A DNA stretch of 64,000 nt from Sphingobacterium sp. CZ-2 (GCF_004526235.1 NZ_CP038159.1:1-64000); one strand, 5' to 3'; shown: positions 21,605 through 31,666, counted from the first letter of the stretch. Notes: generated from the letters alone by a model not told the origin. A program made the numbers and translations.

Positions 21605-22702
21605 ATGAAAATCAAAGATATAACCCAGTTTTTGGAAGAATTGGCGCCATCCAATTACCAGGAGAGCTATGATAACTCCGGTTTGATCGTGGGCGACCCA
21701 AATAAGGAGGTCCACAAGGCGCTGATCTCCTTGGATTGTACCGAAGCCGTGGTAGAAGATGCCATAGAAAAAGGATGCGATATCATCATTTCCCATCATC
21801 CCATTGTGTTCTCAGGGATGAAGCGATTTAATGGTAAAAACTATGTCGAAAGAACGATTATAAAGGCGATAAAGCATGATATTGCGCTATATGCCATCCA
21901 TACCAACCTGGACAATATTGCCGGAGGGGTAAGCAGCAAGATGGCCGACAAATTAGGACTGGAAAACCAGGCCATTTTACGGCCTAAGGCAGGATTGTTA
22001 AAGAAATTGGTGGTCTATGTGCCCCGCACGCATGTGGAGGAAGTGCGAAATGCGCTATTCGAAGCTGGTGCCGGAGCCATCGGCGATTACGACGAATGCA
22101 GCTACAATACAGTAGGATATGGAACGTTTAGGCCATTGGAAGGAGCCAATCCAGCGATTGGCGCTGTGGGTAGCCAGGAAAGGGTAGAGGAGACCAAAAT
22201 AGAAGTGATCTTTCCCGTACAGCGCGAAAGAAAGATCTTGGTTTCCATGTTGGCCGCACATCCCTATGAGGAAGTGGCCTATCATATCATCAGCCTGGAT
22301 AACAGCCTTTCATCGGTAGGATCCGGAGCGATCGGAAACCTAAAAACGCCCATGCGTGAGGAGGAATTCCTAGCCTTTTTGAAAGAACAGTTTCAATTAC
22401 AGGTCATCCGCCATACCAGTTTATCCGGTAAACCGATAAAAAGAGTGGCGCTCTGTGGTGGTGCCGGAGGGTTCCTGTTGAACGATGCAAAGCGATCTGG
22501 TGCAGATATTTTCATCACCGCAGACTATAAATACCATGAGTTTTTTGATGCCGAAGAAGAAATCGTCATCGCTGATATCGGACATTTTGAAAGTGAACAA
22601 TTTACTCAAGAATTATTGTTGGAAGTAATTACGAAAAAATTTGCTAACTTTGCTGTCCTATTGACAGAAATAGATACAAATCCTATAAAATACTACATAT
22701 AA
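21605..22702 (+). CDS. Nif3-like dinuclear metal centre protein
   Basis: A 365-residue protein of the Nif3/YqfO family, hexameric rings with a two-metal site of unknown substrate; GTP cyclohydrolase IB-like activity has been suggested for relatives. The N half has YDNSGLIVGD and the metal-binding HHP in IIISHHPIVFSG, plus AIHTNLDN. The middle carries the CutA-like YqfO insertion (KLVVYVPRTHVEEVRNALFEAGAG). The C half has the DIGHFESEQF metal-ligand block. In Bacteroidota this gene is usually followed by the zinc-ribbon gene that here lies 8 kb away past the mobile element. Confidence 0.9.
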   Translation: MKIKDITQFLEELAPSNYQESYDNSGLIVGDPNKEVHKALISLDCTEAVVEDAIEKGCDIIISHHPIVFSGMKRFNGKNYVERTIIKAIKHDIALYAIHTNLDNIAGGVSSKMADKLGLENQAILRPKAGLLKKLVVYVPRTHVEEVRNALFEAGAGAIGDYDECSYNTVGYGTFRPLEGANPAIGAVGSQERVEETKIEVIFPVQRERKILVSMLAAHPYEEVAYHIISLDNSLSSVGSGAIGNLKTPMREEEFLAFLKEQFQLQVIRHTSLSGKPIKRVALCGGAGGFLLNDAKRSGADIFITADYKYHEFFDAEEEIVIADIGHFESEQFTQELLLEVITKKFANFAVLLTEIDTNPIKYYI

Positions 22703-22718
22703 TAACGGTACTTTTTAG

Positions 22719-22726
22719 TATATTTG
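22719..22726 (+). promoter_or_regulatory. TAnnTTTG motif between Nif3 gene and attL
   Basis: TATATTTG, in the context ttagtatatttgagcct, closely resembles the element's right-end promoter at 30773-30780. It may be the original promoter of the zinc-ribbon gene; a terminator-like hairpin follows immediately. Confidence 0.45.
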
Positions 22727-22758
22727 AGCCTCTTAAAACATATTTAAGGGGCTTTTTT
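22727..22758 (+). terminator. Terminator or attenuator before attL
   Basis: Stem agcctcttaaa / tttaaggggct followed by six T. It would end Nif3-gene transcripts and limit read-through into the integrase. Confidence 0.8.
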
Positions 22759-22788
22759 AATGTTCGGATTTATTGAAATTATACATTC

Positions 22789-22809
22789 TGAACCAAAATT
22801 GATACCAAA
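22789..22809. repeat. attL, left 21-bp direct repeat
   Basis: The sequence tgaaccaaaattgatacc plus aaa is identical to the right copy at 30834-30854. It lies 10 bases before the integrase start. Confidence 0.88.
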
Positions 22810-22819
22810 AAATATAGCT

Positions 22820-24091
22820 ATGAAAGTTAATGAATTGAATCAAAAATATAGGTTTACAGAGCCTAGACACAGTTTTGAAGCTAAAGGTAATCTCTGCAAG
22901 GTATATGTTTATTATTATTTAGATGGTCAAAGACAGGTTTTAAAATACTCGGATGGATTAAATACTAAGTATTTTACTGTTACAAAAGACCTCAATAAAG
23001 CAGAAATTAAAAAAAGAAGTGAGGAACGGTTACGCCTAATTGCAGGCATAAAGGATAATTATCTACAATGGATTGAACATAGAGAATTTAATCCTACTAC
23101 CAAAGCATTTTTACTACCCTCAAATGAGTTAAGCCTACTTAGCTACTATCAGGATTTTATTGATTATAAAACTAAGGAGAAAATTAAACCAAGTACCTTA
23201 ATTCAATACCAAACTAAGTACAATACTTTTAGAGATTATTTAGTCTCAATCAATAATGAAAACATTACTCTATCCAATGCGGATAAGTATCTATATATAT
23301 CTTATTTCCAATACCTGAAAGCAAATAGCATATCGGACAGCTACTACAATGACCTGCTTAACTACCATCGGATGGTATACAATTTCATTATAGATATTCA
23401 AGAGCAAACGGTTAAAAACCCACTTAAAGTAATAAAGTCAATTACTCTTAATGAATCTGAAAAACATCAGGTTATCCATAGTGAAAACATATTAGAATCG
23501 TTTGAACAATTAAAAGAATACGGTAGTACGGAACTATCGCTAATGGCACAATTCATATTTTATACGCTTCATAGACCTGACACATTAGTAAAGTTACAAC
23601 TAAAGGATTTTAATCTTAATAATGAGACTCTACATATTCCTGCATCAAAGATTAAAACCAATAAGGCAGTCACAATACAATTGAATCCAAAACTTAAAAG
23701 TATCATTGTAGAATACTTAAATACTAATGATGTTAATGAGGATAGCTATTTGTTTGGCTATGATATGATAGATAGTATAAGAGGTCAAAAAAAGCAGTAT
23801 CAACTATTCGGAATAAATCAGTCTGATAGACAGGATTACACATTGAAATTTAATCATTTCAGGAATAAGCAAATCATTAAAGCATATAAAAATAATCCAT
23901 CATTAACTAGAATATTTGGTTCAGGTCAAAACCTATACGGTTATAAACATTCTAGTGTAGTATATCTTAGAGATAACAATTGGAGCATTGAGCAGGTAAT
24001 GGAATATACGGCTCATAAAAAAACAGAGATTGCAGAGATTTACGCAAGACAGTACAAGGCTAAGTTGCCTGCATTCCCATCCTTAAAATAA
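22820..24091 (+). CDS. Tyrosine-type site-specific integrase
   Basis: A 423-residue recombinase that would integrate and excise the element. The N half has an Arm/SAM-like DNA-binding region (about residues 110-200). The C half has the catalytic Arg in LHRPDTLVKLQL (residue about 252) and a Lys in SKIKTNKAV. Next come GYKHSSVVYL, TAHKKTEIAEIYAR with His about 399, and the nucleophile Tyr about 408. The usual HxLRH box reads YGYKH, so the second catalytic Arg is Lys and the first His is Tyr. The start is placed at 22820; an upstream in-frame ATG at 22760 would read across attL and so is unlikely to be native. Confidence 0.9.
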   Translation: MKVNELNQKYRFTEPRHSFEAKGNLCKVYVYYYLDGQRQVLKYSDGLNTKYFTVTKDLNKAEIKKRSEERLRLIAGIKDNYLQWIEHREFNPTTKAFLLPSNELSLLSYYQDFIDYKTKEKIKPSTLIQYQTKYNTFRDYLVSINNENITLSNADKYLYISYFQYLKANSISDSYYNDLLNYHRMVYNFIIDIQEQTVKNPLKVIKSITLNESEKHQVIHSENILESFEQLKEYGSTELSLMAQFIFYTLHRPDTLVKLQLKDFNLNNETLHIPASKIKTNKAVTIQLNPKLKSIIVEYLNTNDVNEDSYLFGYDMIDSIRGQKKQYQLFGINQSDRQDYTLKFNHFRNKQIIKAYKNNPSLTRIFGSGQNLYGYKHSSVVYLRDNNWSIEQVMEYTAHKKTEIAEIYARQYKAKLPAFPSLK

Positions 24092-24103
24092 CACATTGTA
24101 ATT

Positions 24104-24139
24104 GGGGGCTACATGGCGGAGCCATGTTATAAAGCCCCC
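24104..24139. repeat. Cruciform repeat, copy 1
   Basis: Nested palindrome: outer arms gggggct / agccccc, inner arms catggc / gccatg. Nearly identical to the copy at 25045-25080. It follows the integrase stop codon. Confidence 0.85.
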
Positions 24140-24144
24140 CCACT

Positions 24145-24285
24145 AAATAACCTTGTAATAACCTACCTAAAACCTGGTAATAACCCCTCTATTAGTACCC
24201 CTCTACCATTCATTATTTTCCCTATCTATTGTCACATTAATTACGGTATCCGCTTATTCGATACCATTAACACGGATTACGGTAT
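24145..24285 (+). repeat. Iteron-like block, copy 1
   Basis: Begins aaataaccttgtaata and ends with a 44-base stretch (24242-24285) that matches 29840-29883 at 38 of 44 positions. That stretch is bounded by two tacggtat octamers. Candidate Rep-binding or origin sequence. Confidence 0.65.
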
Positions 24286-24508
24286 TCGCTGAGGTGCCCT
24301 ATTTAAAGAAATTCGCTTTAAAAATTTTTTGGGAATTTTTTAGCCTGAAATTTTAGCCTACTAATTGTAGATGTTTTGTTACAAAAGTAATATCATTGAC
24401 AATCAACACGTTATACAATAAAATATAATTAATGGTTAAATAAATGTCGAAATACACTATTTATATATAAATGTTTAACACTTACTTAATATATATAGTT
24501 AAACAACA

Positions 24509-24775
24509 ATGGCACAAACAAACATAAGCGGAGTGTATGAATTAACAGTTAATCAGACATTCAATATTAACGGTCACGAATGGCAGATAAGGAATAAAGG
24601 AACAAGGAAATATATAATTGATAATACTACGGATAGTTATGTCAGTGGTCTATTTAGTGTAAAAGGCTTTGAGAATGAATTTAGCTCATTCGACTATGCA
24701 GGGGGGTACTACCTGCTAAGTATTGAGGATGGATATGCATACATCCAATTCGTGAACGAAAAAATTTTAAAATAA
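24509..24775 (+). CDS. Hypothetical 88-residue element protein
   Basis: Not recognised. A short, soluble, probably all-beta protein (alternating hydrophobic pattern, many Gly, Tyr and Asn residues; SSFDYAGGYYLLSIEDGYAYIQF near the end). Its codon use is AT-rich like the rest of the element. It is seven bases upstream of the ribbon-helix-helix-like gene, so the two are probably co-transcribed. It could be an accessory factor of the replication or integration module; that is only context. Confidence 0.6.
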   Translation: MAQTNISGVYELTVNQTFNINGHEWQIRNKGTRKYIIDNTTDSYVSGLFSVKGFENEFSSFDYAGGYYLLSIEDGYAYIQFVNEKILK

Positions 24776-24782
24776 AAAAAAT

Positions 24783-24968
24783 ATGATTAGAACCAAAAGA
24801 GCATCACAGGTAAGAGGATTAAGATTGAATGATTTTGAGTATTCAATAATCTCAAAGTATTTGAAAAATTACGGATACACGGATTTGAGGGATTACCTCA
24901 ACCAGTCAATTATTAATAATTACTTATCGGTTGCGGTTCACCGCATCCAGTCATTGAAAAAAAAGTAA
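24783..24968 (+). CDS. Small basic ribbon-helix-helix-like protein
   Basis: A 61-residue basic protein. The pattern RGLRLNDFEYSIISKYLKNYG, with a predicted short strand and two helices followed by a basic tail, resembles small ribbon-helix-helix or MobC-like DNA-binding proteins encoded beside replication and mobilisation genes. It lies just upstream of the HUH Rep gene, where a regulator or relaxosome accessory protein would be expected. Function inferred only from shape and place. Confidence 0.55.
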   Translation: MIRTKRASQVRGLRLNDFEYSIISKYLKNYGYTDLRDYLNQSIINNYLSVAVHRIQSLKKK

Positions 24969-25044
24969 GGTATCTAATTTGGGTTTCGGCAGTTGTTGAA
25001 ATATATTAGTCTAAAAACGGTTTACGGGGTAAGCCATAATACGA

Positions 25045-25080
25045 GGGGGCTACATGGCGAAGCCATGTTAAAAAGCCCCC
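25045..25080. repeat. Cruciform repeat, copy 2
   Basis: Same nested palindrome as copy 1, with two changed bases, between the small basic gene and the Rep gene. Confidence 0.85.
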
Positions 25081-25176
25081 CGACAATCACAGAGATTTTA
25101 AAATAAAATAAAAAAAAGGAACTGGCAATTATTCTACTAGTTTCTTTAGGTGTAAACAAACAGGTGGATATTAATT

Positions 25177-26103
25177 ATGACATTAAATTTAATTAAGAAT
25201 ATAAGTTGTATTTCAATATACAATGTAACCAATAACATTCTTAAAGTTAAAGGTAAAAAGAGATATATCTTACGTAATATACGGAGACGGAAATGCAGGA
25301 TTAGGGAAGTCGGTAGACCAATTGAGTTAACACCTGAACAAGCCAAAGAGAATCAAAAACAAGCTAATAAGAATTGGAAAAAGCTAACTACAGCTCTAAA
25401 AAATTGTAATAGTCTTGAACAAAAAGAAAACCTTAGCAACGGTATTATCGATACTATTACATTTAAGCCTAAGCCTTCAAATAAGATGCTAAGCTATTGG
25501 TTAATGAATATGTATTCAATGTTTGATTTTGATTATTTCCTGACTTTAAACCATACGGATAAATACATACTTAATAAGTTTGAAGCTAAAAAGACTAAAA
25601 CATTTGATGAGTATTTTTATAACATCCAACAGGATAAATACGTTAAGCAGGCTAATGTTAGCCTTGAATCATTAACGGAAAAAGTAAATGATTATATAGA
25701 CTACATAAAGAAAGAAAACAAGATTAAAATACATTATTACATCGTCAGGTATGAAAAGAATTTAAAGAACAATTGGCACGCTCATTTAGCATTAAAACTA
25801 GATAAGCCAAATGCTTTAAACATTCATAACTATTTAAATAATAGATGGCTTTACAGTAAGTTCAGAAAGAAGACAGTTAAGAAAATAGGTAATACTAAAC
25901 TTCAACCTAAGCATCAACAAATTAGAAATGTTTTAAGTTATATGTTTAAGAAATTAGACCATTACAATTCAAATGTAATTGAATATGAAGTATATGGAAT
26001 CAACGCCAATACGCCTATCTCTTTCATAGTGAAAAAAGATAATAGAGCTAACTACGACATGAGAATGTTTGAACAATTTTTAAATTTACCCTTAGCATCT
26101 TAA
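25177..26103 (+). CDS. HUH-type replication initiator (Rep) protein
   Basis: A 308-residue protein with the three motifs of rolling-circle HUH endonucleases in order. Motif 1 is YFLTLNH (120-126), motif 2 is the HUH metal site WHAHLALKL (200-208), and motif 3 has one tyrosine, NVLSYMFKK (Tyr255, Lys258/259). Spacing fits plasmid/phage-type Reps, in which the Tyr nicks the origin and stays covalently bound. The N-terminal 100 residues are basic. It could instead be a relaxase-like mobilisation nuclease. A terminator follows at 26163. The start is uncertain because the first 45 residues lack family features. Confidence 0.75.
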   Translation: MTLNLIKNISCISIYNVTNNILKVKGKKRYILRNIRRRKCRIREVGRPIELTPEQAKENQKQANKNWKKLTTALKNCNSLEQKENLSNGIIDTITFKPKPSNKMLSYWLMNMYSMFDFDYFLTLNHTDKYILNKFEAKKTKTFDEYFYNIQQDKYVKQANVSLESLTEKVNDYIDYIKKENKIKIHYYIVRYEKNLKNNWHAHLALKLDKPNALNIHNYLNNRWLYSKFRKKTVKKIGNTKLQPKHQQIRNVLSYMFKKLDHYNSNVIEYEVYGINANTPISFIVKKDNRANYDMRMFEQFLNLPLAS

Positions 26104-26162
26104 TACGCAATTTATCAAATAAATTATATATGTATTGGCAACAGTAATGCCTTATTTTCATT

Positions 26163-26195
26163 AAGCCTTACTATTAAATTAGTAGGGCTTTTTTA
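26163..26195 (+). terminator. Terminator after Rep gene
   Basis: Stem aagccttacta / tagtagggctt, 11 pairs with one G-U, followed by T-rich sequence. Confidence 0.8.
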
Positions 26196-26494
26196 TTTAG
26201 GAAAATTTTAAATTTATAGATTACTATGTCTTTTTTAATATTCTCAATTCTTCATTAAATAATACCCGCTAATTACGCTCACATAAAGCCTACAATCGCT
26301 TATTATTACGGATTAATAATGACGTTCATTCTTAATAATAGTATCTTAAAATTGTTATAATTGGCGTTAATGATTTCGCTTAATTAGGTACAAGTTAGCG
26401 AATAGCGAAGGCATGAAGTTGCGCCTCTGAAGATTTATTTAACTTCGTTACCATAGCAAGTATAAAAATTTAGAGATTCAATATATAATTATCG

Positions 26495-26502
26495 TAAATT
26501 TG
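26495..26502 (+). promoter_or_regulatory. TAnnTTTG promoter of the R-M operon
   Basis: TAAATTTG lies 26 bases before the ATG of the first methyltransferase gene. Confidence 0.5.
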
Positions 26503-26528
26503 AAAAGTATAGTTTAATAGAGATAAGA

Positions 26529-27434
26529 ATGAATGAAAATAAAAGAGCAAGACCGTTTCTTAAATGGGCTGGAGGAAAAACACAGCTTATAAACGATATA
26601 GAACGTAATTTGCCTACTAAAGTAACAAATAAAAACTTTACATATATCGAGCCTTTTGTTGGTAGTGGTGCAGTTTTATTTTGGATAACAGATAACTTTC
26701 CAAAACTTGAAAAGGCTGTAATTAATGATATCAACGAAGACTTAATAAACACATATAAAACCATTGCTTCAAATCCAAAAGAATTAATTTCAATTCTTGA
26801 AATTTTACAAAATGAATTTCATAATTTGGAAGGAAAAGAAGATGATAAAAAACTCTATTATTACCATAAAAGAGAATTGTACAATACAAGAAAAGAAGAA
26901 CAAAGCGTACAATCCGCTTTGTTCATTTTTCTAAATCGTACTTGTTTCAATGGTTTGTATAGAGTTAATAGCAAAAATTTATTCAATGTACCAATGGGCA
27001 GTTATAAAAGTCCAACCATTTGCGACAAAGAAAATATAATGGCTGTTAATAACGCTCTTCAAAAAGTAGAAATTCTAAAAGGAGATTATGAACAAACTTT
27101 GAACTACGCAAGTAGTAATTCGTTGTTTTACTTCGATCCGCCATACAAACCTTTAAGCGAAACTTCGAGTTTCAATTCATATGCAAAAGATGAGTTCAAT
27201 GATGAAGAACAAATTCGTTTAAAAGATTTTTGTTCAAAATTAGACGAATTAAATCATACTTGGATTTTAAGTAATTCTGATGTAAAAGGAAAAGATGTAA
27301 GTAATAATTTTTTTGACGACTTATATTCGGATTTCAACATTCAACGAGTTGATGCGAGAAGAAACATAAATGCAAAATCCGACAAAAGAGGAAAATTAAC
27401 AGAATTATTGATTACTAATAATAAAAATATTTAA
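26529..27434 (+). CDS. Dam-type adenine methyltransferase (M.DpnII-like)
   Basis: A 301-residue N6-adenine DNA methyltransferase of the Dam/D12 class. The N-terminal FLKWAGGKTQL (10-20) and EPFVGSGAVL (41-50) form the S-adenosylmethionine site, and FDPPY (202-206) is the catalytic motif IV. With the adjacent DpnII-family nuclease it would protect GATC on double-stranded DNA. It leads a four-gene operon (methylase, nuclease, small protein, second methylase) with gaps of 4 and 10 bases and one overlap. Target GATC is inferred from the nuclease family. Confidence 0.92.
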   Translation: MNENKRARPFLKWAGGKTQLINDIERNLPTKVTNKNFTYIEPFVGSGAVLFWITDNFPKLEKAVINDINEDLINTYKTIASNPKELISILEILQNEFHNLEGKEDDKKLYYYHKRELYNTRKEEQSVQSALFIFLNRTCFNGLYRVNSKNLFNVPMGSYKSPTICDKENIMAVNNALQKVEILKGDYEQTLNYASSNSLFYFDPPYKPLSETSSFNSYAKDEFNDEEQIRLKDFCSKLDELNHTWILSNSDVKGKDVSNNFFDDLYSDFNIQRVDARRNINAKSDKRGKLTELLITNNKNI

Positions 27435-27438
27435 ATAT

Positions 27439-28278
27439 ATGTCTGAGCAATTTAAACGTTTTCTATCACAGTTTTCAGAAACTAATGCTACGCTTGACTA
27501 TTTTACTGACTTTAAAAAAATTAAAAGAAACGTAAATAAAATATCTATTAAGCTTAATCAGTTGAATTATTTAATTGGTAAAGAAAATTTAAAAGAAGCT
27601 ATAAATGAACTTTACGAAGAAAACCCAAAAGTTTTTGAGGTTTTAGATATTTTGATTGCTATAAGAAAAAATAAAAAAGCAAAAACATTCAATAACAATG
27701 GAGAAATTGTATTACTTGATACGTATTTCAACTCACCTGAAGGAATTTTTGAATACATACATGAAACTGGTTTAGCAGAAGTGTTTAGAAATAAAGATGT
27801 AACAAATTTGGTTGATTACGTTTTTGGAATTGAGGTAGGATTAGATACTAATGCAAGAAAAAATAGAGGAGGTGATAATATGTCAAAAGCTGTTTCACTA
27901 ATTTTTGACAAGGCAGGAATCTTTTATAAAAAGGAAGTAAATAACACTATCTTTCCAGAAATTATAAGTTTGGGTGCTGATGTAAAAAGATTTGATTTTG
28001 TAATAAAAACAAAAGTTAAAACTTATTTAATTGAAACTAACTATTATAATAGTGGCGGTTCAAAATTAAATGAAACAGCAAGAGCTTATTCCGACGTTGC
28101 TCCAAAAATCAATCAATACAAAAATTATGAATTTGTTTGGATTACAGACGGACAAGGTTGGTTTTCTGCAAAAAACAAATTGGAAGAAGCGTTTAGTATA
28201 ATTTCAAGTTTGTATAATCTTATCACACTTGAAGAATTTATTAATAAAATTCAGGCAGAAGAAGTTTTAACTTTTTAA
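27439..28278 (+). CDS. DpnII-type restriction endonuclease
   Basis: A 279-residue type II restriction nuclease of the DpnII/MboI family, which cuts unmethylated GATC. Seen: the N-terminal family region with YFNSPEGIFEYIHETGLAEVF, the GLDTNARKNRGG motif (134-145), and a PD-(D/E)xK-like core with Asp186 in RFDFVI, Glu199-Thr-Asn in LIETNYYNSGGSKLNE, and FVWITDGQGW. The order methylase then nuclease, four bases apart, is typical and delays cutting until modification. The family call is strong; specificity is by homology. Confidence 0.9.
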   Translation: MSEQFKRFLSQFSETNATLDYFTDFKKIKRNVNKISIKLNQLNYLIGKENLKEAINELYEENPKVFEVLDILIAIRKNKKAKTFNNNGEIVLLDTYFNSPEGIFEYIHETGLAEVFRNKDVTNLVDYVFGIEVGLDTNARKNRGGDNMSKAVSLIFDKAGIFYKKEVNNTIFPEIISLGADVKRFDFVIKTKVKTYLIETNYYNSGGSKLNETARAYSDVAPKINQYKNYEFVWITDGQGWFSAKNKLEEAFSIISSLYNLITLEEFINKIQAEEVLTF

Positions 28279-28288
28279 AAATAAAAAT

Positions 28289-28555
28289 ATGGCTTGTAAT
28301 AAAATACACGATAATACTGATATTATAGTAAAAGATTTACCAATCGGACAAGAAGGTATTGGAAGACATAAATGTGCTTCTTGTGCTTACGAAATTGGTT
28401 ATCAACATGGTTTACAAAAAGCTGAAAATATCAATTTGGCTAATGTTTTAGATGAATTAGAAGAAAGTCAAAAGGGTGACAGAAGACATAGAAGTCCACA
28501 CGCTGCATATTCTTTAGGTTATTTTAATGGTGTTGTAGATAGTTATAAATGCTAA
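28289..28555 (+). CDS. 88-residue R-M accessory protein with duplicated RH-AY-GY-G motif
   Basis: No characterised family is recognised. Two copies of one motif lie exactly 40 residues apart: GRHKCASCAYEIGYQHG (25-41) and RRHRSPHAAYSLGYFNG (65-81). RH, AY, GY and the last G are in register. The first copy keeps a CxxC pair (Cys29, Cys32) that the second has lost. The gene sits between the nuclease and second methylase genes and overlaps the latter by seven bases, so it is a built-in part of the operon. A metal- or DNA-binding control role is possible but unproven. Confidence 0.7.
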   Translation: MACNKIHDNTDIIVKDLPIGQEGIGRHKCASCAYEIGYQHGLQKAENINLANVLDELEESQKGDRRHRSPHAAYSLGYFNGVVDSYKC

Positions 28556-29427
28556 GTCCCTTTTTCAAATCTAACGACAAAGATTTTTATCTTCTTCATG
28601 GAGACACAATGGAACTTTTGCCTCAAATTGAGCATAAATTCGATATGGTTTTTGCTGATCCACCATATTTTCTATCAAACAACGGACTCACTATACAAAA
28701 TGGCAAAATTGTAAGCGTAAATAAGGGTAAATGGGATAAATCAGAAGGATTTGAATTTATAAACGATTTTAATCGCAATTGGCTTTCATTGGTTAGAGAC
28801 AAAATGAAAGATGATGCTACAATTTGGATTAGCGGAACAATGCACAACATTTTTTCTATCGGTCAAATTTTAAATGATTTAGGTTTCAAAATTCTAAATG
28901 TCATTACGTGGGAAAAAACAAATCCTCCACCAAATTTTTCGTGTAGATATTTTACATATTCGACTGAACAAATAATTTGGGCAAGAAAAAATCCTAAAAT
29001 CCCACATTATTTCAATTATGAATTAATGAAAAAACTCAATGGAGATAAACAGATGAAGGATGTTTGGAAATTGCCAGCAATTGCACCTTGGGAAAAATCT
29101 TGTGGAAAACATCCAACACAAAAACCATTGTCAGTTTTAACAAGACTTATTTTGGCTTCAACAAAGCCGAACGCTTGGATTTTAGACCCTTTTACTGGAA
29201 GTTCAACAACTGGAATTGCCGCTAATCTTACGAACAGATGTTTTTTGGGAATTGATAAAGATGAGAATTTTTTAACAATAAGCAAAAATCGAAAAATTGA
29301 AATAGAGAATTTAGAAACGGTATTAAATTACAAACAAAAAATTAAAGATTTTAATATCAAAAACGAATTGGAATCATTTTTTGTTGAAAAATCTAATATA
29401 GAATATAAAAATGAATTATTACTCTAG
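28549..29427 (+). CDS. Second DNA adenine methyltransferase (DpnA/YhdJ-like)
   Basis: A 292-residue beta-class N4/N6 methyltransferase. DPPYFLSNNG (37-46) is the catalytic motif IV of the DpnA/CcrM group, and the S-adenosylmethionine motif LDPFTGSSTTGIAA lies in the C half, the permuted order expected for this class. GKHPTQKPLSVLTRL precedes it. In the classic DpnII system DpnA also methylates GATC on single-stranded DNA, protecting plasmid DNA during transfer; that would suit an element with an HUH Rep that passes through single-stranded intermediates. It overlaps the preceding small gene. Confidence 0.9.
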   Translation: MLSPFFKSNDKDFYLLHGDTMELLPQIEHKFDMVFADPPYFLSNNGLTIQNGKIVSVNKGKWDKSEGFEFINDFNRNWLSLVRDKMKDDATIWISGTMHNIFSIGQILNDLGFKILNVITWEKTNPPPNFSCRYFTYSTEQIIWARKNPKIPHYFNYELMKKLNGDKQMKDVWKLPAIAPWEKSCGKHPTQKPLSVLTRLILASTKPNAWILDPFTGSSTTGIAANLTNRCFLGIDKDENFLTISKNRKIEIENLETVLNYKQKIKDFNIKNELESFFVEKSNIEYKNELLL

Positions 29428-29546
29428 AATAAAGAACCTCTAGTGAATTGGATTATTTAGCAACGCAAAATATAACTGAGTTACTTTAGATACCTATGTA
29501 CATGATATCCAAAATATAAATCTTGAATACACTAAATATAATATTA

Positions 29547-29883
29547 AAATAACCTTGTAATACCCGAGGGCACTGAAAAAGTCTTCTTAAAAATTTAGAG
29601 GTTTCAAAATGCTTGAAAACCATGTGTTAAACCCTTTGAGAATCGAGTATCTGCGACTTAAAATATAGAAGCATTCAAATAGACAAAAGATAAGGGCTTA
29701 TGAACATAAAAATTCATAAGCCCTTTTTTAATGGATAGTTTTTCAGTGCCCTCTAATACCCCCCCCTCTTTTTAAAAATACCCCCTTTATATAGCCCCAG
29801 AACAGGCGCTTTTTTCATTCATTCAATTGTCATTTACAATACGGTATCCGCTTATTTAATACTATTTGCACGGTTTACGGTAT
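29547..29883 (+). repeat. Iteron-like block, copy 2, interrupted by MITE
   Basis: Starts aaataaccttgtaata exactly as copy 1 and ends with the matching 44-base stretch at 29840-29883, which again has two tacggtat octamers. The MITE sits inside, so this copy existed before that insertion. Confidence 0.65.
29566..29753. mobile_element. 188-bp MITE related to the IS1182-like element
   Basis: Terminal inverted repeats gagggcactgaaaaa are identical to those of the insertion sequence at 41150-42911. An 8-base direct repeat taataccc flanks it (29558-29565 and 29754-29761), the same length as the target duplication of that insertion sequence. It has no coding capacity. A strong hairpin with T-run (aagggcttatgaa / ttcataagccctt) lies near the right end. 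It is probably mobilised in trans by the full element. Confidence 0.88.
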
Positions 29884-30199
29884 AAACTGTAGTGGGTTTT
29901 TACAATAAAATAATCCTAAATAATTCATTTTCAGATAAATAAAATAACGGGATATCAAGGAATATTCTATGTTTTATTAGTTATTCAACTCCCAAATAAA
30001 CAATTACGGAATACGTCTACTACGGTTAACAATTTGAAAATCAATATCATATCTTAATCAACAATTGAATTAAAGGAGATGTTTGTGTCTATTTAACAAT
30101 CTCTAAAATCTCAAATAACACAACAGGTAAGCCCTACAATCAATTATTTTTATAAAATTATTAATGTATCCACACCTATAAATAACGTCTTAAAACGGC

Positions 30200-30207
30200 T
30201 ATATTTG
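30200..30207 (+). promoter_or_regulatory. TAnnTTTG promoter of the right-end gene
   Basis: TATATTTG, four bases before the ATG at 30212; a leaderless arrangement. Confidence 0.6.
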
Positions 30208-30211
30208 AGCT

Positions 30212-30772
30212 ATGAACAGCAGTTATGAAAATAGAGCTATTAGAATCCTATTGCAACCCTCAATACATCTTTATAATATTTTAAACTATTACAGTGATGA
30301 AAATAAAAATAAGATACTCTATTGTCTAGCGAATGAGCAAATAACTGAATTGGTTAGTTTTCTTAATGAATTAATAGAAAATAATAATGAATATTTAGAG
30401 GGGGCTCATGGCGAAGCCATGAATATAGCCCCCGACCAACAATTAGAATTGCTATCCTTACAATTACATATTAGATTATTTATTTCGGAACTAAGGGAGA
30501 GTTACGCTACGGTTAGAGACCTATTATATCACAAGGATGACAGCAATGTAATTAATATACTTAATATCGTCAATGATGTTTTAAATAAAGAATTGAAGAA
30601 TAATAATATTGTTATTCCTGACCACGTCCTTACTGGAATAAGGGACAAAGTACAGGAGGGAGTTAAGCAAGCATTAACACCCCCAAAAGATATGGCTAGT
30701 CAGGATAGTAAAAAAATTGTAAAAGCTAAAATGGAAGATAAAAACAATAAAAAACTATTCAACAAAAATTAG
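30212..30772 (+). CDS. Orphan right-end element protein, 186 residues
   Basis: Not recognised. Predicted to be largely helical and soluble, with an Asn/Lys-rich AT-type composition and a basic tail (KMEDKNNKKLFNKN). A copy of the element's cruciform repeat is embedded in frame and encodes an Ala/Gly-rich insertion near residues 63-74 (EGAHGEAMNIAP), probably a surface loop between helices. The stop codon abuts the outward promoter at the element's end. Its position just inside attR suggests a role in control or excision, but nothing in the sequence proves it. Confidence 0.65.
   Translation: MNSSYENRAIRILLQPSIHLYNILNYYSDENKNKILYCLANEQITELVSFLNELIENNNEYLEGAHGEAMNIAPDQQLELLSLQLHIRLFISELRESYATVRDLLYHKDDSNVINILNIVNDVLNKELKNNNIVIPDHVLTGIRDKVQEGVKQALTPPKDMASQDSKKIVKAKMEDKNNKKLFNKN
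30400..30433. repeat. Cruciform repeat, copy 3, inside a coding sequence
   Basis: Same outer arms gggggct / agccccc and inner catggc / gccatg as the two intergenic copies, but two bases shorter and read in frame by the right-end gene. Confidence 0.82.
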
Positions 30773-30780
30773 TATCTTTG
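30773..30780 (+). promoter_or_regulatory. Outward-facing TAnnTTTG promoter at the element's right end
   Basis: TATCTTTG starts at the base after the stop codon of the right-end gene and points across attR to the zinc-ribbon gene. In an excised circle the same promoter would lie about 84 bases upstream of the integrase ATG. Confidence 0.6.
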
Positions 30781-30833
30781 CACCTTATCCAATGTTCTGT
30801 TTTTGGAGTTAAAAATCAACTAAGAACTTAGTT

Positions 30834-30854
30834 TGAACCAAAATTGATACCAAA
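30834..30854. repeat. attR, right 21-bp direct repeat
   Basis: Identical to attL at 22789-22809; flanking bases differ on both sides. Located 71 bases before the zinc-ribbon gene. Confidence 0.88.
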
Positions 30855-30925
30855 GGATTTAAAAGCTAGCTGCATTTAGCTGTTTATTAACAAGTTACAA
30901 AATATCCTATTAAATACTACAGTTA

Positions 30926-31666
30926 ATGGAACAAACCGTAGAACAAAAATTAAAAGCTTTATGGGCGTGGCAATCAATTGAAACAAAAATTGATAAGATA
31001 CGCCAGGTACGTGGAGAGTTACCTATTGAGGTAGCAGACTTAGAGGATGAGATCGCAGGTCTTGACACCCGTATCGAAAAAATTCGCAATGAGTTGGATG
31101 AATTAGAAGACTCGATTGTGAAACGTAAAAACATGATCAAAGATGCGCAAGCTTCCATCAAAAAATACGAATCACAACTTAATGAAGTAAAAAACAACCG
31201 TGAATACGATGCTATTTCTAAAGAGATCGAAATTCAAGGATTGGAAATTCAGGTATGTGAAAAACGTATTCGTGAAGCTGAGTTCGAAATCAAGAACAAA
31301 ACAGAAGCTTATGATGCTACTGTGAAGAATGTTGATTTCAGCAAAGGCGAATTGGGCGGCAAAAAACAAGAATTGGAAACCATCACTTCGGAAACACAGA
31401 TTGAAGAAGATGATTTGTTGAAAGATGTTGCGGCAGCTGAAACCCAAATCGAAGAGCGTCTATTGAAGGTGATCAAGAAACTTCGTAAGTCTTTCCGTAA
31501 TGGATTGGCAGTCGTTTCTATCGAGCGTGATAGCTGTTCAGGTTGTCACAACAAGATTCCACCTCAATTGCAGTCAGAAATCCGTCAACGTAAGAAAATC
31601 ATCATCTGCGAACACTGTGGTCGTATCCTGGTTGATGAGGAAATTGCAAACGAAGAAGCATCGTAA
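30926..31666 (+). CDS. C4-type zinc-ribbon, coiled-coil protein (COG1579)
   Basis: A 246-residue protein with a long N-terminal coiled coil (about residues 10-180, Lys/Glu heptads) and a C-terminal C4 zinc ribbon: CSGCHNKIPP and ICEHCGRI supply the four cysteines. The family is conserved next to Nif3-type genes and is of uncertain, possibly nucleic-acid-linked, function. Here the Nif3 neighbour has been moved 8 kb away by the integrative element, so transcription probably now depends on the element's right-end promoter. Confidence 0.9.
   Translation: MEQTVEQKLKALWAWQSIETKIDKIRQVRGELPIEVADLEDEIAGLDTRIEKIRNELDELEDSIVKRKNMIKDAQASIKKYESQLNEVKNNREYDAISKEIEIQGLEIQVCEKRIREAEFEIKNKTEAYDATVKNVDFSKGELGGKKQELETITSETQIEEDDLLKDVAAAETQIEERLLKVIKKLRKSFRNGLAVVSIERDSCSGCHNKIPPQLQSEIRQRKKIIICEHCGRILVDEEIANEEAS

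Follow-up and report, generated by a model that had tools for sequence, protein, structure and literature searches.

A tyrosine-recombinase element at the 3′ end of nif3 in Sphingobacterium sp. CZ-2 probably carries a substitute promoter for the displaced zinc-ribbon gene

An integrative element separates nif3 from znr

The DNA analyzed here (the window) is a stretch of 64,000 nucleotides from Sphingobacterium sp. CZ-2 (GCF_004526235.1, NZ_CP038159.1:1-64000). Within it, nif3 is followed by an integrase gene, small genes, a weakly Rep-like gene, a DpnII-type restriction-modification cluster, a last element gene and znr, in this order. The main genes and the two attachment cores were as follows.

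21605..22702, + strand: nif3 (DUF34/NIF3; Pfam PF01784); uninterrupted relatives end ..AAATACTACAGTTAATGG
22688..22697, no strand: attL core AAATACTACA, with similarity to 22680; identified from the direct repeat and uninterrupted relatives
22820..24091, + strand: tyrosine integrase gene (PF00589, 7.2e-9); ATG at 22820, a start supported by the alignment with the 69% identical integrase of Sphingobacterium paludis
30212..30772, + strand: last element gene, function unassigned; its stop TAG abuts the right-end motif, and a 51% identical gene lies at the same place in S. paludis
30912..30921, no strand: attR core AAATACTACA, with similarity to 30904; identified as for attL
30926..31666, + strand: znr, a C4-type zinc-ribbon/coiled-coil gene (FlgZ/CdsZ-like; PF02591) natively coupled to nif3; ATG at 30926

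The nif3-zinc-ribbon gene order is already known (PMC3372290). In 29/29 sampled uninterrupted congeners, the nif3 stop adjoined or overlapped the znr start (..AAATACTACAGTTAATGG..). The preliminary description of this DNA had proposed that such loci be inspected for the native leader; no intergenic leader lies between the two genes in these relatives. The sequence AAATACTACA was present at both element ends and at the nif3 end of uninterrupted relatives, representing one attB, and it sits inside a longer match that is 17/18 identical (22680-22697 and 30904-30921). The left copy in the window reads ATCCTATAAAATACTACATATAATAA and the right copy ATCCTATTAAATACTACAGTTAATGG. Together with the adjoining genes of the relatives, these copies indicate that recombination took place within AAATACTACA, in the last codons of nif3. 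The element extends from about 22698 to 30921 (8,224 bp). It supplies the last codon and stop of nif3 (ATA TAA), the protein ending in YYI* instead of YYS*. An integrase with a phage-integrase domain at one end of the element is the arrangement of a site-specific tyrosine-recombinase element; the window integrase had no NCBIfam match. Our literature search returned no report of integration at nif3 or of a promoter embedded in this gene.

The preliminary description had taken a 21-bp repeat, TGAACCAAAATTGATACCAAA, as the attachment site. This candidate was rejected, as the repeat is located inside the element and is absent from uninterrupted relatives. Its two copies are listed below.

22789..22809, + strand: left copy of TGAACCAAAATTGATACCAAA, candidate arm-type integrase-binding site; repeated, and related repeats flank the core elsewhere
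30834..30854, + strand: right copy of TGAACCAAAATTGATACCAAA, candidate arm-type site; repeated

In other elements, related direct repeats with element-specific sequence flank the core at the same places, and for this reason the 21-bp repeats look like arm-type integrase sites.

At least eight elements were found at the nif3/znr site in two genera, with part of the family sampled and few candidates scored per genome. They comprise the window element, one in S. paludis with a 69% identical integrase in the same site, and six further elements that follow nif3 directly in another genus of the family (the second genus) and whose integrases share 23-26% identity with that of the window. Their sizes differ, from about 5 kb between nif3 and znr in one genome (G383) to roughly 85 kb in another (G150); in a third (G234) the two element ends lie on separate contigs. 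The genome-contig search for integrase relatives returned S. paludis only, and none was confirmed in two scans of IMG/VR. The nif3/znr arrangement in the wider family was read among the matches listed.

A conserved motif is embedded in nif3

Upstream of the att core, the coding sequence of nif3 contains a motif of promoter type.

22645..22652, + strand: TAACTTTG in the nif3 coding sequence; probable -7 box of the native znr promoter, separated from znr by the insertion

In Bacteroidota, the sigma-A -7 box reads TAnnTTTG and spans -12 to -5 (PMC9723704; the box also in PMC7366714). The form TAnCTTTG was found inside nif3 in 53/53 uninterrupted loci of 11 genera (29 congeners, four of the second genus and 20 genomes from nine further genera), 54-61 nt and usually 57 nt before znr. 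The residues encoded at this place vary (A/V/P/S then N/T/I) while the DNA motif is constant. Among 30 nif3 genes, the third base was invariant in only 15 of 364 codon columns, and the longest run of invariant third bases, six codons (344-349), covers AAAAAATTTnnTAACTTTG. Moreover, the asparagine codon AAC was used in 30/30 genes at the motif, whereas AAT is the usual Asn codon elsewhere (396:99). Many other families of the class, though not all, have a similar motif at this place of nif3. These results suggest that the embedded TAnCTTTG is probably a znr promoter inside nif3. Since the att core lies downstream of the motif, every insertion cuts znr off from it; read from the nif3/znr junction and the embedded motif, the insertion would part the host gene from its native promoter.

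The right end carries an invariant box facing znr

At the other end of the element, a second motif of this type reads toward znr.

30773..30780, + strand: predicted right-end promoter -7 box TATCTTTG, reading into znr; start predicted at 30785, given a box spanning -12 to -5

As the preliminary description stated, TATCTTTG comes right after the TAG of the last gene and points to the zinc-ribbon gene. TAnnTTTG occurred 71 times in the window versus 70.7 expected from shuffles, and the motif alone is unremarkable; its significance comes from conservation in eight elements, not from window counts. The word TATCTTTGC was found in 8/8 elements, which share ancestry and do not represent eight independent events, so that conservation counts are not independent trials. 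It is located 0-12 nt downstream of the last gene's stop codon and 131-155 nt upstream of the znr ATG. No other part of the right ends is as well conserved: its conservation is 1.0, versus a mean of 0.55 in the ungapped, motif-anchored region, whereas the right ends are 39-76% identical in the pairs compared. In all eight, the element end next to the host gene carries a conserved promoter sequence, as in promoter replacement of the dusA/prfC type. A -33 box was not recognisable at the right end, and a generic sigma-70 scan gave no excess. The preliminary description had also suggested that the element copies the leader it interrupts. This did not hold as argued, the wrong motif and the wrong attachment site having been used, but another version of it stands, in which TATCTTTGC would take the place of the nif3-internal TAACTTTGC (22645-22653).

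It was also considered whether znr transcripts simply continue from the last element gene by read-through, with the motif being incidental. That gene is co-directional with znr and ends about 150 nt before it, no terminator was found between the two, and a cousin element at another site seems to rely on read-through. The invariance of the motif where the flanking DNA has diverged argues against this explanation, which we regard as very unlikely. The cousin in question (L048 8140-8260, genome G288) appears, as read from the translated sequence, to be inserted in the 5′ end of polA. There, polA would gain a new start codon and be parted from a TACCTTTG-type promoter, and the right-end TAnnTTTG box of the element is absent, which indicates that read-through can suffice in some cases and counts against promoter replacement. 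In favor of promoter replacement at nif3/znr, none of the three cousins at other sites (L046, L047 and L048) had a TAnnTTTG in the last 320 nt before its right att.

Two decoupled genomes have a leader box and no integrase match

In two further genomes, nif3 and znr are decoupled, with 1.45 kb between them in G196 and 159 bp in G011. The family genome search gave no integrase match in either. Boxes were found in both leaders, TATCTTTG at 151 nt before znr in G196 and TACCTTTG at 123 nt in G011. The embedded nif3 motif is absent in both genomes and is kept in all eight element-bearing genomes. The G196 leader resembles the element right ends above shuffles (the score being reached by 0 or 1 of 1000), a resemblance that rests on about 20 bp around the motif, and it may be a fossil element right end. 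For G011, the resemblance was not above shuffles, and the comparison did not support derivation of its leader from an element right end. The 1.45-kb insert of G196 (L054) contains a collagen-like (G-rich repeat), lipoprotein-like ORF.

These leaders bear on another explanation, that the right-end word is part of the recombination site, bound by the integrase or a directionality factor, and not a promoter. Its near-fixed distance from znr, and so a similar one from the core, in all eight elements would fit such a role, and direct-repeat arm sites also lie in that region. On the other hand, the word is an exact match to the sigma-A -7 box, related elements integrated elsewhere do not have it, and a similar box precedes znr in the genomes without an integrase match. 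Integrase binding is more plausibly assigned to the arm repeats, whose sequence differs between elements. We therefore consider a recombination-site role highly improbable and retain the reading of the word as a promoter of znr.

The left end and the circular form

Two features precede the integrase gene.

22719..22726, + strand: left-end TATATTTG, candidate integrase promoter of the element, start predicted at 22731 from TAnnTTTG at -12 to -5 (PMC9723704); conserved in the S. paludis element
22727..22758, + strand: predicted intrinsic terminator at the element's left end; -12.7 kcal/mol, or -2.5 if RNA starts at 22731

The terminator proposed earlier at this place was confirmed as a terminator-like hairpin at 22727-22752 with a T run to about 22758. 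The stretch 22716-22726 around TATATTTG had been read as the displaced host leader, sharing an 'aatgttc' word with the right end. Uninterrupted relatives and the S. paludis element led us to discard this reading: motif plus hairpin (22719-22758) is element DNA, and the sister element keeps TATATTTG together with the hairpin, with stem and loop changed. The 'aatgttc' word is absent from the sister element and is a chance match. A transcript from 22731 is predicted to be without much of the hairpin's 5′ arm. We infer that the left TATATTTG is the integrase promoter, arranged such that upstream transcripts terminate and its own transcripts escape. In the second genus, a separate TAnnTTTG lies 12-26 nt upstream of the integrase start, and no convincing hairpin-plus-T-run terminator was seen.

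The preliminary description had assigned a dual role to the right-end promoter, driving the host gene when integrated and the integrase when circular, with about 84 bases and no hairpin between promoter and integrase in the circle. When the circle was closed via the true core, the right-end motif lay 263 nt before the integrase ATG, with the hairpin between. The terminator thus stands in the way of transcription from the outward promoter into the integrase gene, and the circle-promoter claim fails for the window element. The first half of the dual role received strong comparative support from the box in 8/8 elements, from the embedded motif in 53/53 uninterrupted loci, which the insertion displaces, and from G196 and G011, where the embedded motif is lost and a new one precedes znr.

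An outward promoter serving mainly the integrase of the excised circle, with znr transcription as a side effect, has a precedent in ICEclc, whose outward Pcirc drives intB13 (PMC2892462, PMC9286271). In the circle, the right-end motif does point at the integrase across attP, and the six second-genus elements have no convincing terminator in the way; in these elements, it is possible that the right-end promoter contributes to the integrase. However, an intrinsic terminator stands between in both the window element and S. paludis, and a TAnnTTTG of its own precedes the integrase in every element. Moreover, G196 and G011 have the motif before znr although no integrase of the family was found there, and the cousins at other sites are without the right-end motif. 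We judge this explanation unlikely, and the supply of a promoter to znr remains the preferred reading.

Proposed mechanism and relation to known systems

Comparison of the loci established where the element inserted, that it split the operon and displaced the embedded motif, that the right-end box is conserved and that the embedded motif is absent from the two decoupled genomes, and promoter replacement is well supported on this basis. In the proposed mechanism, znr would natively be served by the embedded promoter and the nif3 operon. The tyrosine-recombinase element would integrate at the 3′ end of nif3, between the embedded promoter and the coupled znr. Its left end would restore the nif3 stop codon, host transcription would end at the hairpin, and the right-end -7 box TATCTTTGC would start transcription anew about 140 nt upstream of the znr ATG. 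The motifs are taken to be active promoters, with znr presumably dependent on the right-end box. Likewise, nif3 transcripts would be stopped by the hairpin, and the integrase would be expressed from TATATTTG, with a predicted start inside the hairpin's 5′ arm. To this explanation as a whole, that the element splits nif3 and znr between embedded promoter and znr and supplies a substitute promoter, we assign a probability of about 0.8.

The supply of a promoter to a displaced host gene is already known at dusA and prfC, in both cases with 5′-end insertion, and the 3′-end form at nif3 is strongly supported by sequence comparison as a new variant. For IMEVchUSA3 at dusA, lacZ fusions showed that the element supplies the promoter for the displaced host gene (PMC8409611), and the window element resembles this and other dusA-specific genomic islands in providing such a promoter. 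However, the dusA islands enter dusA at its 5′ end and substitute both the promoter and the N-terminus, whereas the window element inserts at the 3′ end of the upstream operon gene. In this case znr itself stays intact and nif3 acquires a new stop, and the promoter that is displaced would lie within the coding sequence of nif3; the phylum and the promoter type also differ. ICE SXT/R391 provides a new promoter for prfC (stated in PMC8409611), where its site is the 5′ end (PMC2791158); it differs by this 5′-end insertion, by its gammaproteobacterial hosts and in being a conjugative element. Pcirc of ICEclc is an outward constitutive promoter to which the integrase transcript is assigned (PMC2892462, PMC9286271), whereas in the window element a terminator separates promoter and integrase in the circle, and comparison ties the promoter to the host gene. 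Within Bacteroidota, the IMEs NBU1 and Tn4555 are integrative elements with tyrosine integrases (PMC5704250). The window element differs from them in that no relaxase was recognised, a Rep-like protein is weakly indicated and the site is nif3.

Elements in two genera and two decoupled genomes suggest that a coupled operon can be split without silencing its downstream gene. The comparison also points to a probable promoter within nif3 that is conserved throughout the host's family. This would explain how a tight operon junction can be a durable integration site, and how insertions can rewire operons. A more complete scheme would be full operon insulation, combining the new upstream stop, a terminator with the integrase start in its 5′ arm and the substitute downstream promoter, with decayed copies leaving the promoter only and rewiring the operon permanently, after which the embedded promoter is lost. 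If true, upstream and circle transcripts would stop while integrase transcripts escape. We put this scheme forward tentatively and lean toward doubting it in full.

Cargo and repeats of the element

The gene at 25177-26103 gave a weak Rep-like match only (PF23343, E 0.057), and no relaxase or conjugation family was matched among the element genes. The restriction-modification cluster (26529-29427) consists of a Dam methylase, a DpnII endonuclease, a small cysteine-containing ORF and a second N6 methylase; as it was not found in the S. paludis sister element, it is regarded as cargo. Another Sphingobacterium genome harbors, at a different site, an element (L047 8084-9730) that has the Rep-like gene (80%), orf61 and orf88 in common with the window element. 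The integrase of this element is 29% identical, pointing to module exchange between elements.

Several repeats were also observed. A 188-bp MITE-like unit (29566-29753) has 28-nt terminal inverted repeats that are 82% complementary and start with GAGGGCACTGAAAAAG; it is apparently flanked by an 8-bp duplication, TAATACCC, and contains a strong internal hairpin (29692-29725). A hairpin-forming repeat (GGGGGCTACATGGCGAAGCCATG...AGCCCCC) is present in three copies in the element (24105-24143, 25046-25081 and 30400-30434), the last of which sits in the coding frame of the last element gene. Finally, an 87-bp direct repeat, 72% identical and containing TACGGTATCCGCTTATT words, lies near both element ends (24225-24311 and 29823-29909), and its copies are possibly replication or transfer iterons.
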